Assembly (NCBI RefSeq): GCF_022761115.1
Contig: NZ_JAKWJS010000005.1
Span: forward strand, 186,001-250,000
Direction of reading: 5' to 3'
Length of the DNA stretch: 64,000 nt
Source of the DNA: Dyella sp. RRB7
Lineage (GTDB): Bacteria > Pseudomonadota > Gammaproteobacteria > Xanthomonadales > Rhodanobacteraceae
The notes below the pieces were generated by a model. That model was not told the origin of the DNA, ran no database searches, and was given only the letters and a program-made list of their open reading frames with translations. Positions 28,921 to 29,478 of the stretch are shown one piece after another; the first letter of the stretch is position 1, and each line of letters begins with the position of its first letter. A program made the position numbers and the translations under genes.

Positions 28921-29478
28921 ATGGCAATATCGAAATTCATCAAGCCTTATATCGAGCATGGAGAAAAGGCCGGCGCAGTACGCAAGATCACGGTCTCGAT
29001 TCCACTGCACGTTCTGAGGCCCTTGTCTGACGAACGCACCCGTCGTCAGGTGAACAATCTTCGGCACGCCACCAATAGCGATCTGCTTGTGGAGGCGTTC
29101 CTACATGCTTTTACTGGGCAACCACTGCCAACTGATGAGGAGCTGAGACGAACTATGGCCACTGCCAAGAAAGCCGCTGCAAAGAAGCCGGCCGCCAAGA
29201 AGGCGACCAAGAAGACCGCCGTGAAGAAGGCCGCCGCCAAGAAGCCGGTAGCCCGCAAGCCGGCCGCCAAGAAGGCCGCCGTGAAGAAGGTCGCCAAGAA
29301 AGCTGTTGCCAAGAAGCGCCCGGCAGCTGCCAAGAAGGCTGCCGTGAAGAAGGTTGCCGTGAAGAAGGTGGCAAAGAAGGCCGCCAAGAAGACCGTTCGC
29401 AAGGCTGCCGCCGCCAAGGTGGTGAAGGCCACCAAGGCTGCCAAGGCACCCAAGGCCGCCAAGGCCTCGAAGAAGTAA
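28921..29478 (+). CDS. metJ: MetJ methionine repressor fused to a histone-H1-like Lys/Ala tail
   Basis: 185 residues in one frame. Residues 1-77 are MetJ: the DNA-contacting beta strand RKITVSIP (K22 and T24 correspond to the base-contacting K23 and T25 of the E. coli protein), helix DERTRRQVNNLRHATNS, and the corepressor-side helix LLVEAFLHAFTGQPLP, nearly identical to E. coli MetJ. The remaining ~27 residues of normal MetJ are absent. Instead, from residue 79 the chain is Lys/Ala/Val repeats (AKKPAAKK, AVKKVAKK) for about 107 residues, like AlgP and bacterial H1 homologues that bind DNA without sequence preference. In methionine-rich cells S-adenosylmethionine would act as corepressor. The ATG at 28921 has a GGAGA eight bases upstream. 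Codon 79 is an in-frame ATG (29155) with GAGGAG twelve bases upstream, so a separate tail protein might also be made. A MetJ-box array lies upstream. Confidence 0.88.
   Translation: MAISKFIKPYIEHGEKAGAVRKITVSIPLHVLRPLSDERTRRQVNNLRHATNSDLLVEAFLHAFTGQPLPTDEELRRTMATAKKAAAKKPAAKKATKKTAVKKAAAKKPVARKPAAKKAAVKKVAKKAVAKKRPAAAKKAAVKKVAVKKVAKKAAKKTVRKAAAAKVVKATKAAKAPKAAKASKK
29158..29475 (+). repeat. Low-complexity coding repeat (Lys/Ala tail)
   Basis: Imperfect short repeats of the type aagaaggccgcc, produced by coding for Lys-Lys-Ala-Ala blocks. Repeats this regular can expand or contract by slippage, so tail length may differ between strains. Confidence 0.85.

Follow-up and report, generated by a model that had tools for sequence, protein, structure and literature searches.

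On the forward strand of the stretch of Dyella sp. RRB7 DNA analysed here (64,000 nucleotides, hereafter the window), the gene for the repressor MetJ continues in frame into a Lys/Ala-rich tail resembling histone H1, and this metJ-H1 fusion is a confirmed observation. With respect to its products, we propose with moderate confidence that there are two, namely the full-length repressor, which would be additionally held on DNA by its tail, and a free H1-like protein, which would be translated from an ATG inside the same frame.

Architecture of the fused protein

The metJ-H1 gene (28921..29478, +) is a single open frame running from ATG to stop without an intervening stop codon, and as indicated by the frame itself, by profile matches and by the corresponding loci of the family it codes for a protein of 185 amino acids (aa) that consists of a MetJ core and a Lys/Ala tail. 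The core, a ribbon-helix-helix repressor domain, comprises residues 1-78 (28921..29154, +). It scores 124.7 bits with the Pfam MetJ profile PF01340 (cut-off 25) and 130.1 bits with the NCBIfam MetJ equivalog NF003622 (cut-off 110), and the E. coli MetJ chains in the PDB match the gene product with an E value of 6.6e-32, the match to entry 1cma covering residues 5-89 with a weak stretch past about residue 78. These matches bear out the first-pass annotation of this DNA, which had recognised a MetJ core in the first 77 residues. The closest named relatives belong to Dyella, with 99% over the core to Dyella sp. EPa41. MetJ-like sequence stops at about residue 77-78, and the full C-terminal segment of the E. 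coli type is absent. The last ~27 residues of an ordinary MetJ are thus indeed gone, as had been claimed, but not by simple replacement with the tail, since the tail-less MetJ proteins of three other families (f9 with 13 loci, f12 with 4 and f8 with 1) are short as well.

The tail (residues 79-185; 29155..29475, +), which can also be read as a 107-aa protein from its own ATG, is composed of 40 Lys, 40 Ala, 12 Val, 5 Thr, 5 Pro, 3 Arg, 1 Ser and 1 Met, has neither acidic nor aromatic residues and carries a net charge of +43. With the HC2 profile (PF07382) it scores 21-23 bits (23.2), which is below the curated cut-off of 40, and with NF038053 19 bits, below the curated cut-off of 80, the latter match beginning at residue 79, i.e., the inner Met, with profile position 1. 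As the tail stays under the curated cut-offs of H1-like families, the term histone-H1-like describes its composition. Accordingly, the ~107 residues and the Lys/Ala-rich composition noted at first pass stand, whereas assignment to an H1-like family is not supported by the scores. The AlphaFold model of the full chain is poor (mean pLDDT 48.8).

The host genome has a size of 4.08 Mb, and gcvT, gcvH and a TonB-type gene lie next to metJ-H1. A terminator-like hairpin is located 84 nt 3' of metJ-H1 (window positions 29562-29583); such hairpins are about equally common in shuffled sequence (three found as compared to a shuffled mean of 2.0).

The E. coli MetJ (PF01340; PDB 1cma) is alike in the sequence of its core and in its tandem met-box operators, but in contrast to the Dyella fusion it has 104-105 aa with a C-terminal segment of its own and lacks a basic tail. 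The HC2 and Burkholderia-type H1-like proteins (PF07382, NF038053) are similar in composition to the tail but are free proteins. Combinations of a DNA-binding or transcription-factor domain with a disordered H1- or HMGA-like tail exist in the actinobacterial HU proteins HupB/HupS, with their Lys-rich C-terminal domain, and in CarD of Myxococcus, neither of which is to our knowledge a ligand-controlled, operator-binding repressor. ParG, in turn, joins a ribbon-helix-helix fold to a disordered flexible tail that modulates its DNA complexes, but this tail is N-terminal and the protein serves plasmid partition. In AlgP and PhaF of Pseudomonas, too, an N-terminal domain is followed by a disordered Lys/Ala/Pro-rich H1-like tail with KPAA repeats, although the N-terminal domains of these proteins are not MetJ-type repressors. 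DNA binding is reported for a fragment of the AlgP tail, and the tail of PhaF is believed to anchor granules on the nucleoid (PMC9239181). By analogy to tails of this type, DNA binding by the MetJ tail is likely.

Distribution of the fusion in the Rhodanobacteraceae

MetJ was found in 145 of 398 genomes of the order. Within the Rhodanobacteraceae, 227 of 233 genomes, representing 26 of 26 genera, have a MetJ match (226 over the family cut-off), and the six genomes without a match are 79-93% complete. Open frames were listed for part of the 227 matching genomes, from which 142 and a further 10 loci were examined. An in-frame K/A tail follows MetJ in 141 of the 142 loci, the remaining one (L023) being a contig edge, and of the 10 further loci eight are tailed and two stop at contig edges. 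One of the 142 loci (L222) has a TGA within the MetJ part. The locus L001, which is the window again, was excluded from all family counts, L023 from the junction count and L222 from the codon statistics, and since some loci of named genomes duplicate those of other genomes (e.g., L032/L141, L038/L219 and L039/L124), counts of distinct sequences (136, 130 and 138) were used. By matching loci and protein names, the family with the tailed MetJ covers Dyella, Rhodanobacter, Frateuria and Fulvimonas.

The fusion of MetJ to a Lys/Ala tail is therefore real and family-wide, with 141 of 142 loci continuing in frame. Two observations that would have argued against it had been named in advance. One was an artefact, i.e., a frameshift or misassembly at 29150 joining two genes, the probability of which is negligible given that the same frame recurs in these loci, which come from numerous assemblies including several single-contig genomes. 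The other was the occurrence of metJ and an H1-like gene as separate open reading frames (ORFs) in relatives; however, no K/A-rich ORF was found within 2-5 kb of the tail-less metJ of the other families in any of 18 loci.

The 139 complete tails range from 34 to 309 residues (median 101) with 27-48% Lys and a net charge of +16 to +102, have 0-2 acidic residues and are devoid of Phe, Trp, Tyr and Cys, and are thus consistently Lys/Ala-rich, basic and non-aromatic. An AKVVKAT-like motif (e.g., AKVVKATK) ends 101 of them by a loose and 71 by a strict pattern, while the rest of the tail is fast-changing. It is very improbable that the tail is a functionless, slippage-prone low-complexity extension that is neutral and merely tolerated on MetJ. 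Such an origin would fit with the wide variation in tail sequence and length and with the presence of K/A extensions on other proteins of the same genome (TopA-like and DksA-like), but the tail is found in every locus that is readable through the junction, across the sampled genera, acidic and aromatic residues are strictly lacking, and both the recurrent C-terminal motif and the frozen junction described below speak against neutrality.

In a class-wide sample, MetJ was present in 3 of 274 genomes, which added two MetJ proteins whose open frames measure 112 and 118 aa. A plasmid search returned 15 records, none spanning 80% of the query, and among the ten listed the matches comprised residues 4-77 or 5-77. 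Since the tail occurs across the Rhodanobacteraceae and the MetJ proteins of f9, f12 and f8 are short and tail-less, a single origin of the fusion is most likely, predating the radiation of the Rhodanobacteraceae and involving a MetJ that was short from the outset, as suggested by this distribution rather than by a tree.

The MetJ core and its operators

The residues K22, T24, S26, R39, R42, E58 and H62 of the recognition strand and the SAM-site region, which we take to be those contacting DNA and SAM, do not vary across an alignment of 35 sequences, E. coli MetJ among them, in which 39 core columns in total are invariant. A met-box array (TTTCGTCT AGCGGTAT GGACGTCT; 28741..28764, +) with 17 of 24 matches is located upstream of metJ. 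After regions of less than 290 nt or identical regions had been left out, at least 16 of 24 met-box matches were present in 79 of 138 distinct metJ upstream regions, in 78 cases at the place of the window array, between -160 and -196, as compared to 0, 0 and 5 with three control patterns; 35 of the 138 regions have fewer than 15 of 24 matches.

A second array (ATACGCCT AGACGTTT AGACGTCT; 59677..59700, +) lies upstream of metX-metB-hom, one base 5' of a TTGACA hexamer. Among the best 30 metX loci by score from 59 genomes, a sample of the less divergent metX genes, tandem AGACGTCT-type boxes precede metX in all 30 (reversed-pattern control 0 of 30), and 28 of these 30 stretches also show TTGACA adjoining the array. 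The predicted MetJ targets are accordingly metX (59940..60968, +; NF006449, 374 bits over 296), metB coding for cystathionine gamma-synthase (61006..62196, +; TIGR02080, 608 bits over 504.55) and the homoserine dehydrogenase gene hom (62193..63275, +; PF00742, 153.6 bits over 22.9). Genome-wide, the met-box pattern yields 15 sites as compared to 9 with the reversed control and is too noisy to define the regulon.

As the core retains the conserved MetJ residues and is accompanied by met-box operators, it is most likely a working SAM-dependent repressor. The proposal made at first pass of a SAM-dependent repressor carrying an H1-like arm thus finds support for its repressor part in the fusion, the conserved residues and the met boxes. 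In a proteomics study of Rhodanobacter R12, MetJ was up while four methionine enzymes were down; it is named there as a putative repressor, and the passage concerned does not mention a tail (PMC12146267).

The met boxes are separated from the start of metJ by 156 nt (window positions 28765-28920), a part of which recurs in many relatives and translates as NQLTVEIFRNSFR. A G+C-rich inverted repeat was seen by eye at about 28783-28832, and there is a TTGACA at 28864. This stretch may hold a further control element.

A frozen nucleotide element across the junction

At the level of synonymous sites, a frozen element spans the junction between MetJ and the tail (29107..29172, +) and comprises the 48 nt before the inner ATG together with the six codons that open the tail. 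The 15 codons preceding the linker (GCT TTT ACT GGG CAA CCA CTG CCA ACT GAT GAG GAG CTG AGA CGA) are near-fixed synonymously, GAT, CTG and CGA being the freer positions. In 136 distinct core sequences the normalised synonymous conservation of these last 15 core codons is 0.753, in contrast to 0.203 elsewhere in the core, a value reached by none of 20,000 permutations and by none of 100,000 in a separate run. The constraint persists in the 14 sequences with less than 78% core identity (0.669 vs 0.082). No such excess is seen in 70 tail-less gamma-proteobacterial metJ genes (0.082 vs 0.081, p = 0.45) or in the 13 tail-less metJ genes of f9 (-0.086 vs 0.089). In the 85 loci with tails that start with MATAKK, as in the window, the codons ATG GCC ACT GCC AAG AAA are near-fixed too and the constraint relaxes afterwards, and it is for these loci that the six tail codons of the element are shown; in the non-MATAKK loci the first tail codons vary.

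Amongst the fixed codons are ACT (135/136), GGG (135/136) and AGA (128/128), and together with CGA these are uncommon, accounting for 0.04-0.09 of their amino acid in a sample of window genes. That many frozen codons are uncommon in the sampled genes would be in line with a pause of the ribosome on rare junction codons, which would allow the MetJ core to fold and dimerise before the sticky tail emerges. This is nevertheless an improbable explanation, for the exact codons are kept although any rare synonym would serve, and the common codons GAG GAG are frozen as well.

The element is present in one copy in the Dyella genome. With up to three mismatches it was found in 61 of 299 genomes of the order, all of them Rhodanobacteraceae, and some Rhodanobacteraceae genomes (e.g., of the genera g2, g4, g5 and g12) deviate from the pattern by more than three bases. 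An exact 27-nt junction pattern had no match in viral contigs, a promoter search at the junction gave no consensus-like match, and there was no Rfam match at the junction, the seven weak matches elsewhere in 1.3 kb all being under their gathering scores.

A predicted inner start codon and its putative ribosome-binding site

The frozen element leads up to a start codon. At the aligned position where the tail begins, a start codon is present in 141 of 141 loci, being ATG in 140 (29155..29157, +, in the window) and GTG in one (L183), and it is retained even though the linker residue before it varies between Thr, Asp, Ile, Ala or none. A Shine-Dalgarno (SD)-like GAGGAG (29137..29142, +), indicated as such by its conservation and by its duplex energy, precedes the inner ATG by 12 nt; in the 11 loci that lack a linker residue this distance is 9 nt. 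GAG is fixed at both codons wherever Glu is kept (135 of 135 and 136 of 136 sequences). A 12-nt spacing between SD and start is larger than the usual optimum.

For 40 of 54 distinct regions sampled, the predicted pairing with the anti-SD at the inner start has a mean of -8.2 kcal/mol, as compared to -5.5 kcal/mol in synonymous randomisations and -4.6 kcal/mol at the assumed own start of metJ, and 23% of the synonymous randomisations attain the observed energy. The RNA at the inner start is not unusually open, with an unpaired value of 0.46 compared to 0.44 in the randomisations, 41% of which are as open. A conserved start codon, an SD-like motif and synonymous constraint thus coincide at this site, as would be expected of an in-frame inner start. 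Since a conserved start codon is combined with frozen upstream sequence, these data point to a second, free H1-like product, and the frozen stretch with GAGGAG is probably a nested ribosome-binding site from which also a free H1-like protein is made. Neither the inner start nor the frozen junction had been noticed in the first-pass annotation.

The frozen stretch extends over about 48 nt upstream of the ATG, which exceeds the requirements of a ribosome-binding site, and it may carry additional information. In a rival reading only the fused protein would be made, the junction would constitute another element such as an mRNA structure, an inner promoter or the target of a regulator or small RNA, and the Met would be left over from the H1-like gene that became part of the fusion. 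We consider this rather unlikely. Besides the length of the frozen stretch, a predicted 4-bp GGCA/UGCC hairpin before GAGGAG and the lack of unusual openness at the inner start are in favour of it. However, the constraint reaches a start codon that is kept despite replacement by GTG and even where the linker codon is missing, GAGGAG does not vary wherever Glu-Glu is kept, and the element itself has neither a promoter-like sequence nor an Rfam match. The locus L183 (genome G238), the only one of the 141 that has neither GAGGAG nor ATG and where GTG remains, keeps the fused tail. That the fusion persists without GAGGAG suits a fused product alone and argues that the fusion matters by itself.

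With respect to the favoured reading, in which two products arise, in-frame inner starts are known in bacteria from the short form of CheA, the 65 kDa form of ClpA and others, and their SD sequences are described as tending to be stronger than those at annotated starts (PMC11005335). As in these known proteoforms, two products would come from one frame, but in Dyella the shorter one would constitute a complete protein of the nucleoid type.

Proposed mechanism and significance

We suggest that a SAM-bound MetJ dimer sits on the tandem met boxes while its two disordered basic tails would grip the neighbouring DNA, and this grip would result in a higher affinity for short or imperfect boxes and in a slower dissociation. 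Spreading along DNA, rescue of weak boxes and chromosome compaction, which were suggested at first pass, may be further roles of the tail. Ribosomes would also initiate at the inner ATG, so that one mRNA would additionally yield the free H1-like protein. As met boxes are located at the promoter of metJ itself, both products would rise when SAM falls, and methionine status would be coupled to the dose of a nucleoid-type protein. Taken to its full extent, this scenario is a tentative one: a single MetJ-controlled gene might provide a repressor that responds to SAM and bears a histone-like arm, along with a free histone-like protein translated from a nested ribosome-binding site that goes back to the ancestor of the family, with methionine supply setting the dose of a protein that coats the chromosome.

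Among the MetJ proteins described so far, we know of none that combines an H1-like arm with a probable nested start. In the open-licence literature, a search directed at the fusion and not at the frozen junction retrieved no paper describing a MetJ-H1 fusion, and within that literature the statement of the first-pass annotation that no described case was known holds true. In the part of the survey by Leyn et al. that was consulted, MetJ is given for six other enteric-type gamma-proteobacterial groups and SamR for the Xanthomonadales, and a Rhodanobacteraceae-type group is not listed (PMC4239095). Database records do pair MetJ with HC2 domains, and among the matches listed (120 of 973) most of those bearing a name are called 'met regulon transcriptional regulator MetJ' or similar; as both domains occur in single records, the architecture was already visible by machine.

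MetJ is a textbook repressor, and the Rhodanobacteraceae are a further family that has retained it together with its boxes, here with an H1-like arm. The fusion lends itself as a natural experiment on the influence of a disordered basic tail on a sequence-specific repressor. Moreover, the coding sequence of a repressor probably also serves here as the signal at which translation of a nucleoid-type protein begins, which is visible at synonymous sites only. Provided that both products are made, one message would wire methionine/SAM status to chromosome compaction, and the locus L183, in which the junction signal is lost and the fused tail is kept, offers a natural contrast.

Other basic proteins of the Dyella genome

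A search with NF038053 for a stand-alone H1-like source gene yielded mostly long proteins, TopA-like tails being an example, and it missed the MetJ tail of the same genome. Two further proteins with Lys/Ala-rich extensions were named by reading of their sequences. One of them is TopA-like (C1:1175156) and ends in a Lys/Ala tail, and the other is DksA-like (G000:C14:241793, L330) and has a long Lys/Ala/Pro-rich N-terminal extension in an open frame of 370 aa. There is also a stand-alone H1-like gene (G000:C15:29291-29590, L333), the product of which has an acidic N-terminus (MSIDNEVEVKEE...), and the MetJ tail is therefore not the sole H1-like protein of the Dyella genome.
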